Below, piece after piece: positions 4,161 to 32,621 of a stretch of 64,000 nucleotides of DNA. The notes under the pieces are model-generated. The model saw nothing but the letters and a program-made list of their open reading frames with translations. It did not search any database and was not told the origin of the DNA. Numbering within the stretch: the stretch's first letter is position 1; each line of letters begins with the position of its first letter. The position numbers and the translations under genes are program-made. This DNA is from Leclercia pneumoniae (GTDB taxonomy: Bacteria; Pseudomonadota; Gammaproteobacteria; Enterobacterales; Enterobacteriaceae). Location of the stretch: the NCBI RefSeq assembly GCF_017348915.1, contig NZ_CP071383.1, forward strand, positions 2,852,001 to 2,916,000, in the 5' to 3' direction.

Positions 4161-6458
4161 TTACAGCAGTTCGAACTCGCCTTTGTTTACCCGCGCAGAG
4201 TCCTGGCCAATAAAGACGTTGAATTTGCCCGGTTCAGCATCGTACTTCATGCGCTGATTCCAGAACTTAAGCGCCTCGATATCGATCGGGAAGTTAACGG
4301 TTTTGGTCTCGCCCGGCTTCAGGCTAATCTTCTCAAACCCACGCAGTTGTTTAACCGGGCGGCTGGTTGAGGCGGTAACGTCCTGAATGTACATCTGCAG
4401 CACGGTCGCACCTTCACGCTTACCGCTGTTGGTTACCTGCACGCTGGCGGTAACCTTGCCGTCACGCGCCATCGACGGGGAAGACATTTTCACCTCAGAG
4501 ACGGTAAAAGTGGTGTAGCTCAGACCATAGCCAAAGGGATAAAGCGGGCCATTGGCTTCGTCGAAGTAGCGCGAGGTGTATTTGTTTGGCTTATCCGCGT
4601 TGTACGGACGGCCGGTGTTGAGGTGGCTGTAGTAAACCGGGATCTGTCCAACCGAACGCGGGAAGGACATCGGTAGCTTACCGGACGGGTTGTAATCGCC
4701 AAACAGCACATCGGCAATGGCGTTCCCGCCCTCGGTGCCGGCAAACCAGGTTTCCAGAATGGCGTCCGCCTGCTGATCCTCTTTTACCAGCGCCAGCGGA
4801 CGGCCATTCATCAGCACCAGCACCAGCGGTTTGCCGGTGGCTTTCAGCGCGGTAATCAGGTCACGCTGACTTTGCGGCAGGGTGATGTCAGTCCGGCTGG
4901 AGGCCTCATGAGCCATGCCCTGTGCTTCACCCACAACGGCAACGATGACGTCAGACTGCTTCGCGGTATTCACCGCTTCGTCGATCATCTCTTTTGGCGA
5001 ACGCGGATCGACCTTCACCGCCTCTTCATACTGATTGAGGAAGGTGACGATGCCCTGATCGTTAGTCACGTTGGCACCTTTGGCATACTTCACGGTGGCG
5101 TTGTCACCCAGCGCATTTTTGATACCCGTCAGCACGGTGACCGACTGGTCCGCAACCCCGGCTGCCGACCAGCTCCCCATCACGTCGCGCTTGCTGTCGG
5201 CCAGCGGCCCGATCACCGCCACGGTGCCCGATTTGGCGATCGGCAGCGTATTGAGACGGTTTTTCAGCAGCACCAGACTTTCGCGGGCGACTTCGCGGGC
5301 TTCTTTGCGGTGCAGGCGGCTTTCGGCGTTCGTGTCTACCGGATCAGACTCTTTCGGTCCCAGGTGGCTGTACGGATCGTTAAACAGCCCCATGTCATAT
5401 TTCACATTCAGAACGTGACGGGTCGCGTCGTCCAGCTCCGCCATGGTGACCTTGCCCGATTTGACCAGCCCCGGCAGATATTTGCTGTAATACTCGTCGC
5501 TCATGCTCATGTTAATGCCAGACTTCAGGGCGACGCGCACAGCATCTTCAGGATCGGAGGCGGTGCCGTGCTTGATCAGCTCCTTAATGGCCCCGTGATC
5601 GGAAACGGTGATGCCCTTGAAGCCCCACTCGTCACGCAGAACCTCTTTCAGCAGCCAGGCATCCGAGGTCGCCGGGGTCCCGTTCAGGGAGTTCAGGGCG
5701 ACCATTACCGCGCCGCTGCCCGCGTCCAGCCCCGCTTTGTAGGGCGGCATATAGTCGTTAAACAGACGCTGCGGGCTCATGTCGACGGTGTTGTACTCTT
5801 TACCACCCTCAACGGCGCCGTAGGCTGCGAAGTGCTTTACGCTGGTCATCACCGAATAGCGATCCGCCGGGCTTTTGCCCTGCATCGCTTCCACCATGGT
5901 TTTGCCCAGGGTGGCGGTAAGGTAGGTATCTTCCCCGAAGCCTTCCGAGGCGCGGCCCCAGCGCGGATCGCGAGAGGCATCGACCATTGGCGCCCAGGTC
6001 ATATTCAGGCCATCGTCGGCTGCTTCATACGCCGAGACGCGTCCCACGGTTTTCACCGCATCGAGGTTAAATGAGGAGGCCAGACCCAGGCTAATCGGGA
6101 AGACGGTACGCTGGCCGTGCAGCACGTCATAGGCAAAGAACAATGGGATCTTCAGGCGACTCAACTCCATCACCTGGTCCTGCATTTTGCGGATGTCCTG
6201 GCGGGTGACGGTATTGAAAATCGCCCCAACCTGACTCTCTTTGATCATCTCACGGATGGCCTCTTTCGGGTTATCCGGGCCGACGCTGATAAGACGTAAC
6301 TGACCAATTTTCTCATCGACCGTCATCTTCTTGAGCAGGTCGGTAACAAAGGCGTCACGCGCTTCCGGCGTCAGGGGATGATTGCCAAACAGCTCATCAG
6401 CCAGCGCGGGTTGCAGTGCCAGACTTACAGCGACACCTACAGAACATAGCCATTTCAT
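4161..6458 (-). CDS. bglX: BglX, periplasmic beta-glucosidase (GH3)
   Basis: A 765-aa protein, identical in length to E. coli BglX. It starts with a signal peptide (MKWLCSVGVAVSLALQPALA, cleaved before DELFG). It continues with a GH3 N-terminal barrel holding the nucleophile Asp in GITVSDHGAIKEL (about residue 287), then the GH3 C-terminal alpha/beta domain (about 400-640) and a fibronectin-III-like domain (about 680-755). It hydrolyses beta-glucosides in the periplasm. It is a single gene, divergent from dld, with a hairpin after its stop. Confidence 0.96.
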   Translation of the reverse strand: MKWLCSVGVAVSLALQPALADELFGNHPLTPEARDAFVTDLLKKMTVDEKIGQLRLISVGPDNPKEAIREMIKESQVGAIFNTVTRQDIRKMQDQVMELSRLKIPLFFAYDVLHGQRTVFPISLGLASSFNLDAVKTVGRVSAYEAADDGLNMTWAPMVDASRDPRWGRASEGFGEDTYLTATLGKTMVEAMQGKSPADRYSVMTSVKHFAAYGAVEGGKEYNTVDMSPQRLFNDYMPPYKAGLDAGSGAVMVALNSLNGTPATSDAWLLKEVLRDEWGFKGITVSDHGAIKELIKHGTASDPEDAVRVALKSGINMSMSDEYYSKYLPGLVKSGKVTMAELDDATRHVLNVKYDMGLFNDPYSHLGPKESDPVDTNAESRLHRKEAREVARESLVLLKNRLNTLPIAKSGTVAVIGPLADSKRDVMGSWSAAGVADQSVTVLTGIKNALGDNATVKYAKGANVTNDQGIVTFLNQYEEAVKVDPRSPKEMIDEAVNTAKQSDVIVAVVGEAQGMAHEASSRTDITLPQSQRDLITALKATGKPLVLVLMNGRPLALVKEDQQADAILETWFAGTEGGNAIADVLFGDYNPSGKLPMSFPRSVGQIPVYYSHLNTGRPYNADKPNKYTSRYFDEANGPLYPFGYGLSYTTFTVSEVKMSSPSMARDGKVTASVQVTNSGKREGATVLQMYIQDVTASTSRPVKQLRGFEKISLKPGETKTVNFPIDIEALKFWNQRMKYDAEPGKFNVFIGQDSARVNKGEFELL

Positions 6459-22957: not shown

Positions 22958-23750
22958 TGAATCGCCACAGATAATCTAGACACTTCCGAGCCGCTGATAA
23001 TATTGTTTTTCGTATTCAGTTGGTGGCATATGATCACTCGAACCATGCCGACGCTTACTGTTATAAAACATTTCGATGTAATCAAAAATATCACCGCGAG
23101 CTTCTTCTCGCGTTCCGTAGATCTTTTTCTTTATCCGTTCACGTTTCAGTAGCTGGAAAAAACTTTCTGCGACTGCGTTGTCATGACAGTTACCGCGACG
23201 GCTCATACTGCCCTCCAGCCCGTGTGATTTCAGGAACGACTGCCACTCATAGCTTGTGTACTGACTGCCTTGATCAGAATGAACCAGCACCTGCTTTTGA
23301 GGATTACGTCGCCACACGGCCATCAGAAGTGCATTCAGGACAATATCCTTTGTCATCCGGGGCTGCATTGACCAGCCAATAACTTTGCGCGAGAACAGGT
23401 CAACAACCACAGCCAGATACAGCCAGCCTTCGTGAGTCCGGATGTAGGTGATGTCCGTTACCCAACGCTCATCCGGTGCTTCCGGGTTGAACTGCCGCTG
23501 GAGCCTGTTGGGCGTCACGATGCTGGTTTCACCCTTACGTGCCCGTGGGCTACGGTACCCGACCTGAGCCCTTATCCCGGCACGCTTCATCAGTCGCCAG
23601 ACACGGTTAACTCCGCACTGTTGTCCGGTATCCCGCAGGTCGAGGTGGATCTTGCGATAACCATAAACGCAACCCGACTCCAGCCAGAACTGCTTTATCA
23701 GCCCCGTCAGCCTCAGGTCAGCATGATGCCGCCGTGAATCCGGCTGCTGA
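22958..23750 (-). mobile_element. IS3-family insertion sequence remnant
   Basis: An intact element end is visible at 22958 (TGAATCGCCACAGATAATCT reading inward), immediately behind the orfB stop. The other end is missing: orfA and the first part of orfB are gone, and the sequence merges with the AhpD-like gene near 23745-23755. The exact junction is uncertain to about ten bases. The element is immobile as it stands. No flanking target duplication can be recognised. Confidence 0.85.
22976..23750 (-). pseudogene. Truncated IS3-family transposase OrfB
   Basis: The reading frame is open from the junction near 23750 to TAG at 22978-22976 and gives about 255 residues of the DDE transposase. Visible parts are a YGYRKI segment, ERWVTDITYIRTHEGWLYLA (first Asp), VLVHSDQGSQYTSYEW (second Asp) and NCHDNAVAESFFQLLKRE (Glu), then the ending YYQRLGSV. 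The whole catalytic core is present, but the N-terminal part and the frameshifting orfA partner are absent, so it should not transpose. Confidence 0.85.
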
Positions 23751-24069
23751 AGCGGGCTTCGCGTAATTCACGCGTCTGCTCGTCAGTGTATCCGGCCTTT
23801 TTTGCCATCAGCGTGTGGGCGGCAAGACAATAGTCACAGCCAGACTCTTCGCTTACCGCAAGATTAATGGCTTCCAGCTCACGCGCATTGAGACTTCCCT
23901 TATGTAATGCCGCGTTCAGCTGCAGCATCTGGCCCAGTATTTCCGGCGACTGCGTACCAATGGTCAGATAGGCGTTCGGAACTTTACCCATGCTGCCTTT
24001 GATAGCGCTGAACAGCTGTGCGGTTTTACCGGTTGCTTCGTCTTCGGCGATAGTATGTAAGCGGCTCAT
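23713..24069 (-). pseudogene. AhpD-like carboxymuconolactone decarboxylase, 3' truncated by the IS
   Basis: The start ATG 24069 has a good AGGAG site. The protein begins MSRLHTIAEDEATGKTAQLF and contains the AhpD-type redox centre EESGCDYCLAAH (CxxC plus His). After EARFS it runs into IS sequence and stops at 23713, giving 118 aa. Relatives of this peroxidase-like family usually have about 175-180 aa, so the last third is missing. The N-terminal part could still be translated, but function is doubtful. Confidence 0.8.
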
Positions 24070-24575
24070 AATTACTCCTGATTTCATTTAGATAATTGTT
24101 CAGGTGACAGAACGTTAATGCCCTGCCACGCCAGGTTCATGAGCACATTACTGCGACAGGATAGGAGGAAAAAGTCAGCAGCCGAATTAAGACTTTCTCT
24201 CGAAAAGGTAAAATAGAACGTATACCAGGGACAGTTTAATCATGCTGTGTCCCAGAGCGGCGCTTGCCTGTATCGATCCCGAATGAGGGGCTTAACGGGC
24301 GGCCGGTTTTCCCACCCAGTTTCATTACTGCTTCCTGCAACATAAATTTCTCAGTTTTAATGACTATTCCGCCTTAATGTTTTTCGGTTGCAATAACCTC
24401 ATTCGGAACATATTTGTTCTTTATTTCTCTTTTCTCTTCAGAAGATCCTAAAAACCCTGAAGCCGAATCCGGGCTGGCTAATCGTATTGAAGGGTGAGGG
24501 AGCTACAGCAGGAAGGGGTTCACGGCATGAGGTGGATGGAAACGGAAGGTCTGTTTTGAGCGAAAAGCGGACGTT
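24070..24575. other. About 500 bases without a recognisable intact gene
   Basis: It contains the upstream region of the AhpD-like remnant. A 35-codon open frame on the minus strand (from about 24341 to 24235, beginning MLQEAVMKLGGKTGRPLSPS) has no clear ribosome site and no recognised family. At 24557-24572 lies the second exact copy of TGAGCGAAAAGCGGAC. The region looks like decayed island sequence. Confidence 0.5.
24557..24575 (+). repeat. Copy 2 of the TGAGCGAAAAGCGGAC repeat
   Basis: An exact 16-base match to 22192-22207, followed by GTT. It sits directly before the GNAT remnant. Confidence 0.6.
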
Positions 24576-24809
24576 ATGACTCTACAGTACTACTATAAAA
24601 TTTATATATATGAACAATATCGTGGTAACGGAATAGGCAGCCAAATGCTGAGCGCGATTCTGTCCCTTTCGAATAAAGTAGATCTGCTTTGTTCGTCCGA
24701 TCTTGTTCCATTTTACGAATCTGACGGAACTCATTCTAAAGGTAAATTCACTACACCATCAGATGCGAATTTCACAAAACTACGGATATGTATTCAGGTT
24801 TATGCGTAA
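24576..24809 (+). pseudogene. GNAT acetyltransferase remnant
   Basis: A 77-codon open frame whose first half reads as the C-terminal part of a GNAT enzyme: an acetyl-CoA loop in YEQYRGNGIGSQMLSAIL and the typical VDLLCSSDLVPFYES segment. The N-terminal half is absent, and after about residue 50 the sequence no longer looks like the family, suggesting a frameshift. The base composition is AT-rich, unlike the core genes. It is probably a decayed fragment. Confidence 0.65.
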
Positions 24810-24958: not shown

Positions 24959-25981
24959 TTACATAAAGGGCTTTATAAGACTATCTAAAAATTTGGCCAT
25001 TTCATTTACTGATATATAGTGCTTTATAATAAGCGATATTAAAAAGGTCATGAAAAGGCTTACAAAGGTGCCCAACATAATGTACTCAGAACGATGGCTG
25101 TCATTGTCATCTTTCAAGTCATTGAATCTGAATGCAGTTTTTATTGCCATCATAGCTGCTATCGCTGTAAATTGTCCGTAAATGAAGAAAGTGAATATCA
25201 TTACCCGCTCTACAAACCCTATCCATTGCCCCCCTTTATTTGAGGAGAATGCCATTTTGGATTCTATACTAATATCAACCTTTGGTATTTCCATTACAAT
25301 GATTTCAGCACGTTTTCTGTAGTCTGTAAATGCTGTATTGGCATCGGAAGATGCGCAAGATGCACTATTCATTAGCGTATTAAGCTTTTCCTTAAGATTA
25401 TCTTCTAACATTCTAGATATATGGCTCTTAGTAACTTTGATGTGAGTTATCTTAGTTTCCGCCATTGCCATAGTAAGAAATTTTTCAACGAAAAATGAAA
25501 CCGGCCTCAAAAGGATAAGTAAACCACAGACAACAAGAGCGAAACTTGCCAATCCTTTAATATGGTCATACTTTAATAAACTAAACTTCATTATTTCAAA
25601 TGATTGAATACATACAACCAACAGAATAATGGTTAAAAAATGAATAATCTGATCTGATACGAAAAATAAAAAATCTCTTTTTGGGTATTTAATGTTTAAT
25701 TTTTCTTTCAAACCATCAATTACTAAATGGATAAAAGCATAAGCCGTGCCAGTGTACAAAACAGGATAAGCAAAAATGAAGATATTTCCGCCCATTAAGT
25801 AAAACCATATAGTGAGACTTAAAAGAAATGCCAGGTAATGCTCTCCGGCATGAACCACGTGTGCTACCACAGCTGCCTTTTTTCCACGGAGACCGGATTT
25901 CCTTTCCACCATACTTTTACTTTGCGTGTAAAAATCAACAATGAGATGAGACAAAATGAGTAAAAGAGCGAGGTAAAACAT
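24959..25981 (-). CDS. DUF3307-family polytopic membrane protein, partner of SatD-like protein
   Basis: A 340-aa membrane protein. The N-terminal DUF3307 domain (about residues 1-125) has four helices bearing repeated polar motifs: HLIVD (His12, Asp16), HVVHAGEH (His41, His44, His48), HLVID (His85, Asp89) and DQIIH (Asp110, His114). Another helix (about 143-165), a cytosolic helical linker (about 175-245) and a C-terminal pair of helices (about 255-320, starting GQWIGFVERVMIFTFFIYGQ) follow. The repeated His/Asp pairs look like an intramembrane metal site; that is an inference. Its ATG follows the upstream gene's stop with no gap. Function is unknown. Confidence 0.8.
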   Translation of the reverse strand: MFYLALLLILSHLIVDFYTQSKSMVERKSGLRGKKAAVVAHVVHAGEHYLAFLLSLTIWFYLMGGNIFIFAYPVLYTGTAYAFIHLVIDGLKEKLNIKYPKRDFLFFVSDQIIHFLTIILLVVCIQSFEIMKFSLLKYDHIKGLASFALVVCGLLILLRPVSFFVEKFLTMAMAETKITHIKVTKSHISRMLEDNLKEKLNTLMNSASCASSDANTAFTDYRKRAEIIVMEIPKVDISIESKMAFSSNKGGQWIGFVERVMIFTFFIYGQFTAIAAMMAIKTAFRFNDLKDDNDSHRSEYIMLGTFVSLFMTFLISLIIKHYISVNEMAKFLDSLIKPFM

Positions 25982-26638
25982 TTAAATTATTCCTGTAATG
26001 TATTTCCGGCAATCCATTAATGACTCGATAACTCTTTCTGTTCCTGAACGTTCGATTATCTTGTGTATATTCTGTCGGCTTTTTTGCGCCTTCTTTGCCA
26101 GTTCTGGCGGGTTAACATCCATAACATCCAGAGCCTCTTTCAGAATCTCCGCCTGTGGCTTCGAAAGCATTGTTATCGTGTTATCGAGAAGATTTGTAAT
26201 GGATGATAATGAAAACATAAGCGCCTTATGCGATGAGTTAAACACCATGTTTTTGGCCTTATGCATGGTTTCAAGATTTCTGCCCGACAGTATGTAAGCA
26301 ACTTCATAAGCACTTTCATCGTATTGAGAATATTTGTTTAGCATTTCAATTGAAATGGAAAGCCTGGCATCCAGTTTTGTCAGTTCGTATACATCCGTCA
26401 AAGAGATCAGGTAAGTTCGGATAAATGCGGCCATCTCTAGAATAGATTGAGGTGATTCAACCGTAATTTGGAATGAATCGCCCCTGAAAAACTCAGTTTT
26501 AGATACGCCATACCAGTCGTGTCGCGTAACTTCCTTCAGCATCGTTGTAGCTATTTGCCTGTATGTTATACCGCGATCCAGTCCACCCATAGAGGTTACC
26601 AAATCCCCTGTGATGACCCCCATATATCTGTTTTCCAT
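25982..26638 (-). CDS. SatD-family protein with cyclase-like palm motifs and C-terminal HTH
   Basis: A 218-aa cytosolic protein of the SatD type. Residues 7-16 (GVITGDLVTS) and 48-60 (TEFFRGDSFQITV), spaced about 40 apart, followed by a helix and LDARLSISI (89-97), follow the order seen in class III nucleotidyl cyclases (a strand with metal Asp, then a GDxF hairpin, then a short strand). Asp12 and Asp54 are the candidate metal ligands. Residues 160-200 form a probable helix-turn-helix (PPELAKKAQKSRQNIHKIIE). SatD in streptococci is named from an acid-tolerance locus; biochemical function is not established. It is the first gene of the pair, with a paired-palindrome promoter. Confidence 0.75.
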   Translation of the reverse strand: MENRYMGVITGDLVTSMGGLDRGITYRQIATTMLKEVTRHDWYGVSKTEFFRGDSFQITVESPQSILEMAAFIRTYLISLTDVYELTKLDARLSISIEMLNKYSQYDESAYEVAYILSGRNLETMHKAKNMVFNSSHKALMFSLSSITNLLDNTITMLSKPQAEILKEALDVMDVNPPELAKKAQKSRQNIHKIIERSGTERVIESLMDCRKYITGII

Positions 26639-26704
26639 CGTTTATCCTCTCCCTAGGCTCAAGTATTCATTCATTTAGCGTGACGATAAATAATTGTTGA
26701 CATG

Positions 26705-26732
26705 ATACTACTTTGTCATATTTTTTAGTCAA
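26705..26732 (-). promoter_or_regulatory. Promoter of the SatD-like/DUF3307 operon
   Basis: On the minus strand TTGACT (26732-26727) and TAGTAT (26710-26705) are 16 bases apart, about 65 bases upstream of the SatD-like ATG. The -35 lies inside the downstream-proximal palindrome, so an operator-bound protein would block it. Confidence 0.6.
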
Positions 26733-26775
26733 CCAAAATGATTGACATTGGGCATTGTCAACCATTTTGGTTGAC
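26728..26775. promoter_or_regulatory. Tandem 19-bp palindromic operators before the SatD-like gene
   Basis: Two copies of GTCAACCA-N3-TGGTTGAC. The copy at 26757-26775 is a perfect palindrome (TTT centre). The copy at 26728-26746 has one mismatch (TGATTGAC). Centres are 29 bp apart, just under three helical turns. The outer arms also form a perfect 13-bp inverted repeat (26728-26740 with 26763-26775). The proximal copy overlaps the promoter -35. The natural candidate binder is the HTH of the SatD-like protein. Confidence 0.75.
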
Positions 26776-26836: not shown

Positions 26837-27486
26837 CTAACCATTTCTGCTCTTCTCCGTGTCCCGCCGGTGTTTGTCTGCAATCCGTTTTGACTTCCTT
26901 TCCATCCGGCGCAGGGTTGAAGCCGACTTCGAGGCCTGCATCTGGATCAGTCGCTCCCGGATGGACGCAGAAGGATTGAAACCGCCTTCCCATGACGTGA
27001 GACTGATGGCAAATTCGCGGCAGATATCCTCTGATAATTCCACTACATAAAGACCGTGTTTTGCATAGAGCTCCTGACGCTTGCTGTAATAACCTGAAAA
27101 ATCCGGCCCGTCCTCAAAGTATCTGTCATCAAGGTTAGCCAGCTCATTCCTTAACTGGGCGTGTTTGGATTCAATGCTGTGCAGTCTGTAGAGCATATCT
27201 GTGTTGAGATATTTGTAATCCCCTTTACCGATGACATTTTCAGTTCCGGCTCATCGTATCTCATGATGATTTCCTTAGAGACAGGATCATATATCCCTTC
27301 ATTACCCGAAAGAAATTCGCAATCAGCAATGTACTTATCGAGAATAAAAATCAGCTAAACGATAATGTAACGTTCTTCTCTCTTTTGTTTACTTTTTTCG
27401 AATACGGCTTCTTTAATCGTGTTGTATACCAGTGGTGCTACAACTGCCGTTTCCGCACCAAACAGCGTCCACGTTTCTTTTGCCAC
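26837..27486 (-). pseudogene. Broken gene of unknown family (nonsense codon plus frameshift)
   Basis: From GTG 27486 (with AGGAAAG upstream) the frame reads MAKETWTLFGAETAVVAPLV and on to ERYIIV, then hits TAG at 27357-27355. It continues in the same frame (DKYIADCEFLSGNEG, RYDEPELK) to an AAAA run at 27240-27237, where a one-base shift leads into GKGDYKYLNTDMLYRLHSIE and a basic C-terminus ending TEKSRNG. An earlier ATG at 27544 is also possible, with another shift. The downstream 119 codons could be translated alone from ATG 27196. I do not recognise the family. Confidence that the parts once were one gene is moderate. Confidence 0.55.
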
Positions 27487-27609: not shown

Positions 27610-28356
27610 CTACCAAAATGACGCGTATCTATCTGACGTAGTTAATTTATCCCCACCTTTATCTCCATTACAAACATCGCAGACCATTTGCAAATTGGTT
27701 GGATCGTTAGTTCCCTCAAGATTGAGTGGGACAATATGATCAATCGCGATATTTGCAGTATTAGCATATACCCCCGTTAGATCGCGCTGGCAAATAGCAC
27801 AGTGTCCATCTTCCCGCTTTAATAGACCTTTTTTTAACCAAACAGGCCATCGTGTCCAGCGCACCATCACACCATCACGCTTAAGATAAGACGGATAATC
27901 AGATTGTTTTAATTTTTTTATTTCTTCAGAAACATTAAGATTAAACTGACGCATCACGTCGCGGTCTCTGAAAAGCAGAGTGAATGTATCTTTTACCAAG
28001 GATGGGTTTACCTCTGAGTTAAATATCTCAAAAAGATATTCATGATAATTACACTTCTGGTACTCTTCGAACCTCTGAAAAATTACATTATAAGCATCAA
28101 ATTCCTTATAAATATCTTGATAGATTTCACATCCCATTTTTTTTAAGTCGTGCCGGAAATCATCCAGTATTCTGTAAGATATATAATCATGAAGAAGCGT
28201 GTAAGTTTGTGGTTTAATCGTTATTTTTAAAACATCTTCCCCCATATAAAAAGAATATTTAAAAGGGATGCGGCATTCTTCGCTGTATATTTCTCCCTTT
28301 ATCATGGCGGCTGCGTCAAGTGCGTACCGTTGTCGTGCCACAGCGAATCTGTTCAT
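27610..28356 (-). CDS. HNH endonuclease-domain protein
   Basis: A 248-aa protein. The first 165 residues are charged and helical, without a recognised domain. The C-terminal HNH domain is complete: Cys186 and Cys189 (HCAICQRDL), the catalytic pair in AIDHIVPLNLEG (Asp206, His207), Asn221 in PTNLQMVCDVCNGDKGG and the second zinc pair Cys226 and Cys229. It should be a metal-dependent nuclease. AGGA stands eight bases before ATG 28356, whose ATG overlaps the stop of a 31-codon ORF. It is AT-rich, unlike the core genome. Possible roles are defence or mobile-element nuclease. Confidence 0.85.
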   Translation of the reverse strand: MNRFAVARQRYALDAAAMIKGEIYSEECRIPFKYSFYMGEDVLKITIKPQTYTLLHDYISYRILDDFRHDLKKMGCEIYQDIYKEFDAYNVIFQRFEEYQKCNYHEYLFEIFNSEVNPSLVKDTFTLLFRDRDVMRQFNLNVSEEIKKLKQSDYPSYLKRDGVMVRWTRWPVWLKKGLLKREDGHCAICQRDLTGVYANTANIAIDHIVPLNLEGTNDPTNLQMVCDVCNGDKGGDKLTTSDRYASFW

Positions 28357-31622: not shown

Positions 31623-32621
31623 TTATTTACCGATAAACTCAGCCAGGTTGGACTGGTCTACGCCCACGTAAGGTACGCGTACGATTTTATTTTCAATTTT
31701 CCAGTTGGTGCCATCAGCGGCACCTTTACCGTCGGCCAGGTTTTTCGCCAGGTCGAAGGTGGCTTTCGCCTGGTTGTTGGCATCGTTCAGAACGGTACCG
31801 GCCATTGCGCCAGATTTAACCAGAGCCAGCGCTTCTGGCAGGGCATCAACACCGAATACCGGAACAGAGGATTTGTTGTGTGCTTTCAGCGCTTCTACCG
31901 CACCCATTGCCATCGCATCGTTGTTGGCAATGACCACTTCAATTTTGTTCGCATTCGGGCCAGAGAGCCATGCGTCCATCTTATCTTTCGCCTGAGCGGT
32001 ATCCCACATTGCGGTATCTAACGCCAGCTGCTGGGTCTTCAGGCCCTTGTCATTCAGCTCTTTAATCACGTAAGAGGTACGCGCTTCTGCATCCGGGTGG
32101 CCCGGCTCGCCTTTCAGCAGCACGAACTGAATCTGACCATCTTTGTTCAGGTCCCAGTTCGGGTTAGCCGCCCAGTGTTTAGCAATCAGGTCGCCCTGGA
32201 TAATGCCGGATTCTTTCGAGTCGGTGCCCACGTAGAACGCTTTGTCGTAGCTATCCAGCGCTTTACGGGAAGGTTCTTTGTTGAAGAAGACGATAGGAAC
32301 GTTCTGGCCACGTGCTTTTTCAATAACGGTGCCTGCAGCAGCCGGGTCAACCAGGTTGATTGCCAGGGCTTTAACGCCCTTCGCCAGCAGAACGTCAATC
32401 TGATCGTTCTGTTTGGACTGGTCATTCTGGGAGTCATTCATCAGCAGCTGAACGTCTGGCGCTGCTTTAGCATCTTTCTCGATAGCTTTACGCACAACGG
32501 ACATGAAGTTGTCGTCGTATTTATAAATAGTTACACCGATACGGGTATCAGCAGCGTGCGCTGCGGCACCGAAAAGCATGCTTGCCATTACAGCAGACAG
32601 GGTCAACACCTTCTTATTCAT
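31623..32621 (-). CDS. mglB: MglB, periplasmic galactose/glucose-binding protein
   Basis: A 332-aa protein, same length as E. coli MglB. The signal peptide ([20 protein letters not shown], cleaved after AHA) precedes [20 protein letters not shown]. The calcium loop DLNKDGQIQ and the sugar-site segments [13 protein letters not shown] and GVDALPEAL are clear. It binds galactose and glucose for MglAC and signals to the Trg chemoreceptor. It is the first gene of the operon, under the CRP/gal-regulated promoter. Confidence 0.97.

Follow-up and report, generated by a model that had tools for sequence, protein, structure and literature searches.

What is the function of two touching, AT-rich genes of which the first encodes a SatD-like protein and the second a membrane protein of the DUF3307 family? 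The question is raised by a stretch of 64,000 nucleotides from Leclercia pneumoniae (contig NZ_CP071383.1, positions 2,852,001 to 2,916,000; hereafter the window). The answer that we tentatively favor, with a probability of about 0.47, is that the first open reading frame (ORF1) encodes an autoregulating regulator that carries both metal-type aspartates and restrains the DUF3307 protein encoded by the second (ORF2), in the manner of the Panoptes system or of an antitoxin. Both the restraint of ORF2 and the role in defence are what we infer.

25982..26638, minus strand: ORF1, SatD-like protein of 218 amino acids (ORF call; structure model and Foldseek/VIA fold matches).
24959..25981, minus strand: ORF2, DUF3307 membrane protein of 340 amino acids (PF11750, 45.5 bits; all-helical model).

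A sequence-only reading of this DNA had placed two AT-rich, touching genes in a variable island, and this description holds. The GC content is 34 to 43% at 24 to 29 kb against mostly 52 to 62% elsewhere in the window, the ORF1 family is present in 5 of 99 genomes (its own, none of 59 congeners and 4 of 39 from elsewhere in the order), and the stop codon of ORF1 abuts the ATG of ORF2 with zero gap. The finding is larger than that reading described, namely a cross-phylum, putatively self-regulated pair of a cyclase-fold protein and a membrane protein.

The two families appear to form a near-obligate pair in Bacteroidota and Bacillota and to occur sporadically in Gammaproteobacteria, including on small plasmids and in prophages. 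A genome scan returned at least 534 ORF1 relatives, of which 80 were retained, and by a rule-based assignment DUF3307 lies directly downstream in 95 of 100 ORF1-family hits, a count that includes one virus contig twice (loci L001 and L093); the conserved membrane partner proposed earlier is thus borne out. Two of the five non-paired hits are marginal, and the other three genomes (L021, L080 and L089) do hold DUF3307. The ORF1 family was found in 54 of 198 Bacteroidota genomes (49 at E<1e-10), Pfam SatD in 63 of 398 Bacillota genomes, and the ORF1 family in 7 of 276 Gammaproteobacteria genomes including its own, one of the seven being a weak match to the helix-turn-helix (HTH) only. DUF3307 accompanies the gene at 50 of 51 Bacteroidota places (restricted to those found at E<1e-10 with A3, the profile of the ORF1 family), one of them, copy 2 of genome G372, having only broken DUF3307 remnants, and at 58 of 72 SatD places in Bacillota (72 of 73, one at E 8.8e-4 being left out). 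Among the 30 best Bacillota SatD loci, a DUF3307 match falls within the same 3 to 4 kb in 29, a few in reversed order and one a fragment.

Conversely, 5 of 55 DUF3307 places in Bacteroidota (55 of 57 were counted) appeared unpaired: the G530 gene in fact adjoins SatD, that of G498 is broken and that of G483 matches in part, while G477 and G423 carry real solos. Among 61 Bacillota places, counted with N-terminal-only and weak partial matches left out, four appeared unpaired; G577 is paired, G940 has by eye a diverged SatD-like neighbour, and G826 and G636 are the remaining candidates. L232 (G716) held no convincing SatD.

The pair is also mobile, as had been suspected. ORF1 relatives occur in six virus contigs and in 12 plasmid records, among them Enterobacter kobei pDW108-119542 (a 99% copy), P. 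fragi pPFL and three others; seven of the 12 are small plasmids of 3.8 to 4.4 kb from E. coli and Klebsiella. In the six plasmid records that were checked, DUF3307 is directly downstream, in five by annotation and in one unannotated record by ORF reading, and the 3.8-kb plasmid has, besides the pair, only Rop, MobA and one hypothetical gene annotated. The phage genome collection contained no ORF1 relatives, and neither the island nor the L008 pair had a match among complete E. coli genomes. In the literature that we searched, which included few subscription papers or preprints, nothing named both SatD and DUF3307 and no mechanism was given for the pair; DUF3307 turned up in a single paper, and so did SatD as a family, a domain or a likeness.

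The features of ORF1 are consistent with an enzyme fold joined to a DNA-binding region.

26231..26638, minus strand: palm/cyclase-fold domain, residues 1 to 136 (profile, model and structure matches).
26603-26605, minus strand: codon of metal-type aspartate D12, within the palm/cyclase-fold domain.
26477-26479, minus strand: codon of metal-type aspartate D54, within the palm/cyclase-fold domain.
26045..26161, minus strand: HTH region, about residues 160 to 198 (HTH families in relatives; helices in the model).

The structure model of ORF1 (pLDDT, a confidence score, 89.7) matches GGDEF proteins, class III cyclases and Cas10 in Foldseek and VIA, and places one aspartate on strand 1 and another in a beta hairpin, the arrangement that defines the palm/nucleotide-cyclase fold. 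Together with the profile matches, this agrees with the earlier assignment of the first protein to a nucleotide cyclase or palm type, an assignment that had overlooked the C-terminal HTH. GGDEF diguanylate cyclases bear a GG(D/E)EF signature that ORF1 does not share: it reads RGDSFQ, and R precedes GD in 87 of 87 members of A3. As these 87 relatives were mostly found by the RGD-FQ search pattern, the invariance of R52, G53, D54, F56 and Q57 among them is biased, and the unbiased evidence for D54 comes from the loci retrieved with the whole-family profile or with Pfam. The label SatD-like has also stood up, although ORF1 itself has no direct match to Pfam SatD (PF16264) even at E<=10: that family is matched by 49 of 87 ORF1 relatives at E<=1 (best 2.4e-13), and A3 matches SatD in 30 of the 30 best Bacillota loci at E 2e-6 or better. 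Judged by these intermediates and the shared DUF3307 neighbour, ORF1 is a member of the SatD superfamily, to which SatD of the S. mutans sat operon (PF16264) belongs as well; Bacillota SatD likewise has DUF3307 in its locus, while ORF1 is too diverged for Pfam and has RGDSFQ instead of GDEFQ.

Does the fold matter to the partner, or only the HTH? Of 118 copies that have DUF3307 beside them, 116 keep both metal-type aspartates, and 11 of 14 partnerless copies are without both. The loci counted are those that the whole-family profile or Pfam picked up, with two duplicates (G822 and G658) removed and three cases re-read; the raw counts, in which the duplicates stand twice, are 116 of 119 and 11 of 15. 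An aspartate of L163 was recovered upstream of the called start. The two paired exceptions are L247, which is masked, and L304, in which no N-terminal aspartate was found; the partner of G822 is a DUF3307 fragment only, and the partnerless copies that keep both aspartates are G658, G769 (at a contig edge) and copy 2 of G372, an intact SatD beside the broken remnants. On a tree, the partner was lost four times and the aspartates were lost twice independently, both times in partnerless lineages. Because the aspartates are kept with the partner and lost in two lineages without it, the catalytic site of ORF1, and not the HTH alone, probably serves DUF3307, the best evidence being this correlation over two events.

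An active site coupled to the partner would also suit an enzymatic antitoxin that modifies the DUF3307 protein directly, with no diffusible messenger, in the way that nucleotidyltransferase antitoxins modify their toxins directly, and an antitoxin-like gene order with autoregulation would fit such an enzyme too. The fold of ORF1 is of the cyclase/palm type, which is not known to be that of the nucleotidyltransferase antitoxins, and we regard this explanation as improbable.

Six partnerless SatD-like proteins that lack the aspartates (L222 to L226 and L229) lie, in 6 of 6 cases, near a gene with an HTHxxLSDG or similar motif, which we take to be PHP-like; they are perhaps a second, repurposed SatD system.

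The regulatory side of the favored reading is drawn from the sequence upstream of ORF1, where the following elements are found.

26757..26775, plus-strand sequence: operator 1, GTCAACCATTTTGGTTGAC (pattern search, shuffles).
26728..26746, plus-strand sequence: operator 2, GTCAACCAAAATGATTGAC, 29 bp from operator 1 and overlapping the putative -35 hexamer.
26705..26732, minus strand: putative promoter TTGACT-N16-TAGTAT, also in L001, L007 and L013.
26687..26701, minus strand: conserved leader element GTCAA(G/C)AATTATTTA.

The sequence-only reading had named a promoter of the pair's own with paired operators, which is upheld, and had treated the operators as incidental, when they are the most telling regulatory feature of the locus. 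Both are 19-bp palindromes and are the sole two perfect matches of GTCAAYCANNNTGRTTGAC in the 4.4-Mb genome (allowing up to three mismatches gives 56 sites, compared with 27 for a reversed control pattern), and the pair was equalled in 0 of 2000 dinucleotide shuffles. Promoter-like sites number 10 where 7.8 are expected, so that the putative promoter alone is not above chance. In nine enterobacterial, plasmid and phage promoters, several of them close relatives, the two best operator matches are exactly 29 bp apart in eight, the exception being L094, and the observed operator score was reached by 0 of 2000 dinucleotide shuffles in each of the nine. Because the replicons that carry these promoters were not seen to share any gene besides the pair, ORF1 with its HTH is the obvious candidate for the operator-binding protein.

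Beyond these relatives, 35% of 94 family genes have a best-palindrome score of at least 9 in their upstream sequence, compared with 5% of 921 controls taken from the same loci. TCAACC-N4..8-GGTTGA with up to two mismatches is present in 29 of 86 family promoters and in 30 of 862 control ones (Fisher P 4e-17; the count excludes the lineage that defined the motif, and its rows are not phylogenetically independent). Some members of the family, from two phyla, share the operator CAACC-N5/6-GGTTG, repeated at intervals of 28 or 29 bp; Bacteroidales-type loci have a gap of 6 and arrays of up to five copies. Successive spacings in the array set (n=49) were 29 bp in 28 cases and 28 bp in 16. Over 97 loci and 1.40 Mb, 89 single sites lay in the 25 kb of sequence upstream of ORF1 homologues and 96 elsewhere, while 46 site pairs with the 28- or 29-bp spacing lay upstream of ORF1 homologues (in 27 loci) and 4 elsewhere; these four belong to the same promoters, just inside coding starts that, judged by where the homology matches lie, were called too early (L016, L026 and L043). 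Operator pairs with this spacing occur in the 1.4 Mb only at promoters of the SatD-DUF3307 pair. Since operator 2 overlaps the putative -35 box, repression is suggested, and operator conservation, taken as it would be for a toxin-antitoxin module, points to autoregulation by ORF1.

The leader element is partly kept between the window and the plasmid copies, whose proteins are about 40% identical. A lone operator-like site with one mismatch at 32346-32364 is probably due to chance.

If the pair is a regulated unit, where does it serve? On E. kobei pDW108-119542, GajA (3.7e-235) and GajB (1.5e-232), the proteins of a Gabija system, are encoded in the same stretch as the 99% copy. Three related Bacteroidales-type metagenome-assembled genomes (MAGs), L069, L081 and L085, have on one strand the order hsdR, one gene, hsdS, SatD, DUF3307, hsdM (the hsdR piece of L085 was assigned by homology), and a Flavobacteriaceae MAG, L090, has on one strand hsdM, a PDC-S13 gene, hsdS, one gene, SatD, DUF3307, hsdR. 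In L068, hsdM and a PDC-S02 gene lie beside the pair on the opposite strand, and in Rahnella a 1271-amino-acid protein with weak similarity to PDC-S73 (3.5e-7) is encoded downstream of it. Type I restriction-modification genes are in or beside the pair in 5 of 96 loci; because L069, L081 and L085 are close relatives, these represent about three independent cases and not a general enrichment.

Homologues of eight defence neighbours account for 14 of 593 genes within four positions of the pair and 0 of 489 further off, the eight queries having been picked from the near genes themselves. PADLOC searches at E<=1e-20 gave 110 families for genes within two positions of the pair (80 of 221 eligible), among the matches listed mostly type I restriction-modification with at most three proteins each, and eight families with one protein each for 73 distant genes, which remained of 80 drawn from the 266 in those loci after 7 that were out of range had been dropped. 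No model of PADLOC 2.0.0, which predates Panoptes, matched the pair itself (best E 0.014 for ORF1, none for ORF2). The earlier proposal of a defence system thus gains from the Gabija plasmid and the five restriction-modification loci, and its expectation of general enrichment in defence islands is not borne out. That the pair sits within type I restriction-modification operons, in two different arrangements, argues for a guard role. For the copies that are mobile or linked to restriction genes, a part in defence or as a guard is plausible; for the family as a whole it is conjectural. Complete-looking GajA/GajB genes in L007:4288-7846, the pDW108-119542 locus, lie upstream of the pair with an annotated IS3 transposase gene between.

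The direction of control is suggested by work on streptococci. In a pangenome transposon-sequencing study of S. pyogenes, satD was carried by 178 of 249 genomes and, alone among the accessory genes, reached the top quarter of essentiality scores (PMC11323703); no other published phenotype came to light. A gene that is dispensable by its absence and essential when present looks like an antitoxin or the synthase of an inhibitory signal; because it is essential where present though absent from some genomes, satD may restrain something. In L216, which is Streptococcus-like by gene content, satD lies directly before DUF3307 in what we take to be the order dprA-topA-satD-DUF3307-trmFO. Losses run the same way: ORF1 was kept after loss of the partner four times, while a full DUF3307 gene stands alone once (a cluster in two genomes), plus three candidates. 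Because ORF1 outlives its partner more often than the reverse, this asymmetry, small as the numbers are, is that expected of an antitoxin and its toxin. The layout of the pair, with the regulator first and coupled to a membrane protein, and the near-obligate pairing counted above also argue for the favored reading. The solo DUF3307 genes of L219 and L220 (G477 and G423) lie inside a thiamine-biosynthesis-like cluster, and the core of the L220 protein has EF for EY.

The opposite direction, activation as in Pycsar or CBASS (cyclic-oligonucleotide-based antiphage signaling systems), would have ORF1 silent until infection, when its nucleotide would open or activate a membrane effector. The cyclase fold with a membrane partner, the carriage on plasmids and virus contigs, the Gabija genes on pDW108-119542 and the restriction-modification genes in 5 of 96 loci would all suit it. 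It is nevertheless distinctly unlikely, as autoregulatory operators suggest continuous control, the family is common on Bacteroidota chromosomes, and essentiality of satD where present (PMC11323703) is the opposite of what an activator predicts.

What, then, might be restrained? The predicted partner can be divided as follows.

25604..25981, minus strand: DUF3307 N-terminal domain with HxxxD (12/16), HxxxD (85/89) and DQxxH (110/114), a possible metal site.
25241..25468, minus strand: segment holding an insertion of about 60 amino acids, in the plasmid/phage lineage only (row-length comparison).
25058..25234, minus strand: conserved C-terminal core G251, I254, G255, E258, R259, K281, R285, E299, Y300, G304, S308.

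Residues 6 to 126 of ORF2 match PF11750 (gathering cut-off 23 bits), ORF2 also matches phrog_2470 at 3.3e-10, and its model is all helical (pLDDT 86.9), in agreement with the polytopic membrane protein that had been predicted. The residues of the C-terminal core are invariant across 81 aligned sequences, and in a larger alignment of 206 rows, which includes a few duplicates, ERKREY occupies six core positions in 193. The full N-terminal HxxxD...HxxxD...DQxxH set is found in 172 of the 206, and a degraded form of it in 11 (L005, L006, L017, L018, L023, L024, L027, L048, L053, L162 and L245); because all 11 retain the core, the constant part of the family is, by this alignment, the C-terminal core and not the possible metal site. 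The segment before the core has 82 to 90 residues in the seven rows with the insertion and a median of 24 in the 206, none of the other 199 exceeding 70. DUF3307-only phage membrane proteins (phrog_2470) have the N-terminal domain in common with ORF2, and the 119 positions of that profile leave out the core that marks the paired form. A possible kinship of DUF3307 with YdjM and hydrolases of the phospholipase C-P1 nuclease type is a lead.

Taken together, these observations would fit the following course of events. A dimer of ORF1 would bind the palindromic operators in its own promoter and repress the operon, the fold and the operator conservation being observed, and its active site would work together with the membrane partner, as the correlation over two events suggests. 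The role of effector would fall to ORF2, a helical membrane protein in which the ER/K/R/EY/GT-S core is invariant and an N-terminal His/Asp cluster is usual; the nucleotide product of ORF1, or nucleotide-bound ORF1, would most likely hold it silent. Loss or perturbation of ORF1 by stress, phage or plasmid loss would then derepress the operon and free ORF2 to act on the membrane. On plasmids, in prophages and in restriction-modification operons the pair might serve for addiction, as an anti-phage guard, or both, and elsewhere perhaps as an envelope-stress module. A broader formulation, which counts SatD-DUF3307 modules from at least three phyla as one widespread class of guards working by an inhibitory signal or like antitoxins, the catalytic output of array-binding ORF1 silencing a possibly metal-dependent effector and loss of the signal both derepressing and releasing it, is possible but rather doubtful.

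Among known systems, Panoptes is the nearest in plan: OptS, an mCpol palm-domain nucleotide synthase, makes a signal that keeps the membrane effector OptE off, and as here a palm-domain protein with two putative active-site aspartates is followed by a membrane protein (PMC12657218). OptE is a protein of the S-2TMbeta type with two transmembrane segments, and Panoptes is often linked to CBASS (PMC12657218), a link for which no search was made for this pair. ORF2, in contrast to OptE, has DUF3307 as its only match in Pfam. Unlike Panoptes, ORF1 adds an HTH and has its own operators. Pycsar joins a class III-type cyclase to a membrane effector with a cyclic-nucleotide-binding domain; a cyclase-fold protein with a membrane partner is common to both, whereas ORF1 lacks the Asn-Arg transition-state pair and has the added HTH, and Pfam found no cyclic-nucleotide-binding domain in ORF2 or, for its relatives, among the first 25 of the 34 families matched. 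The regulator-first operon, the paired palindromic operators and the carriage on small plasmids recall toxin-antitoxin modules in which an HTH antitoxin autoregulates; unlike them, this pair combines a regulator of enzyme fold with a large membrane protein. PrrC, an anticodon nuclease, is a guard gene embedded in a type I restriction-modification locus, a placement similar to that of the pair between hsd genes in L069, L081, L085 and L090; unlike PrrC, this is a cyclase-fold/membrane pair with most copies outside such loci.

Several findings weigh against the favored reading. The match of ORF1 to the profile of the cyclase Ma1120 is weak (E 0.005), and HTH-only proteins score equal or better. 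Class III nucleotidyl cyclases have a conserved Asn-Arg transition-state pair, which is missing here (residue 116 is V, I, H, Q or R, and R120 is present in 50 of 87), and the ORF2 fold had no useful match in the PDB or the viral structure library. Partnerless G658 retains both aspartates, and the correlation of aspartates with partner is based on four partner losses and two aspartate losses (sign test p 0.5). In even samples, 3 of 50 paired promoters in Bacteroidota and 1 of 60 in Bacillota have the operator; because these are few, the operator belongs to part of the family, and other operators, if present in the rest, probably differ in sequence. For streptococci, the adjacency of satD and DUF3307 comes from the Streptococcus-like L216 and not from S. 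pyogenes itself, in which polar effects or a different role of satD could account for its essentiality. Earlier studies of S. mutans, cited in PMC11323703, tie sat genes to acid tolerance. No type I restriction-modification genes were in or beside the pair in 91 of the 96 loci, and no constant third gene was found, the most widespread other neighbour cluster occurring in 10 loci (locus-by-locus neighbour rows covered loci through L088). Because most copies are chromosomal and lie in ordinary contexts, with neighbours shared mostly within genera, the pair is not mainly a defence-island gene.

Some of these same points would favor ORF1 as a repressor that acts on transcription only and senses a nucleotide but does not make one, with ORF2 as a transporter or hydrolase in envelope or acid-stress housekeeping: the HTH with its operator arrays, the missing Asn-Arg pair, the ordinary chromosomal contexts and the annotation of sat genes as acid tolerance. 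The retention of the aspartates with the partner and their loss without it are hard to explain by DNA binding alone, even if a partner-dependent nucleotide sensor could need a metal site too, and the placement of the pair inside restriction-modification operons also tells against housekeeping; we consider this explanation unlikely, and restraint of ORF2 by a catalytically competent ORF1 remains the reading that we favor.

The island around the pair holds further genes, with flanks that we take to be a SanA-like and an MglC-like gene. A 119-amino-acid ORF at 26837-27196 (minus strand), just upstream of the operators, matches the PADLOC candidate PDC-S67 (3.7e-11), and L001 has a shorter ORF resembling it ahead of the pair (5559-5765). 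The next gene noted in the island, at 27610-28356 (minus strand), encodes an HNH endonuclease with an IscB/PtuB-like HNH domain. The region adjoining the pair at 22976-24809 contains an IS3 transposase piece, an AhpD-like protein and a short GNAT-like ORF.

If the favored reading is true, SatD and DUF3307, so far two unassigned families, merge into a single system whose chemistry can be tested and whose membrane effector is of a new type. The essentiality of the accessory gene satD in streptococci would then be accounted for, as would the scarcity of other genes on a 3.8-kb plasmid, and the guard form would explain the presence of the pair inside restriction-modification operons. The operator arrays provide an immediate binding assay and, in Bacteroidales, a bioinformatic handle on the family.

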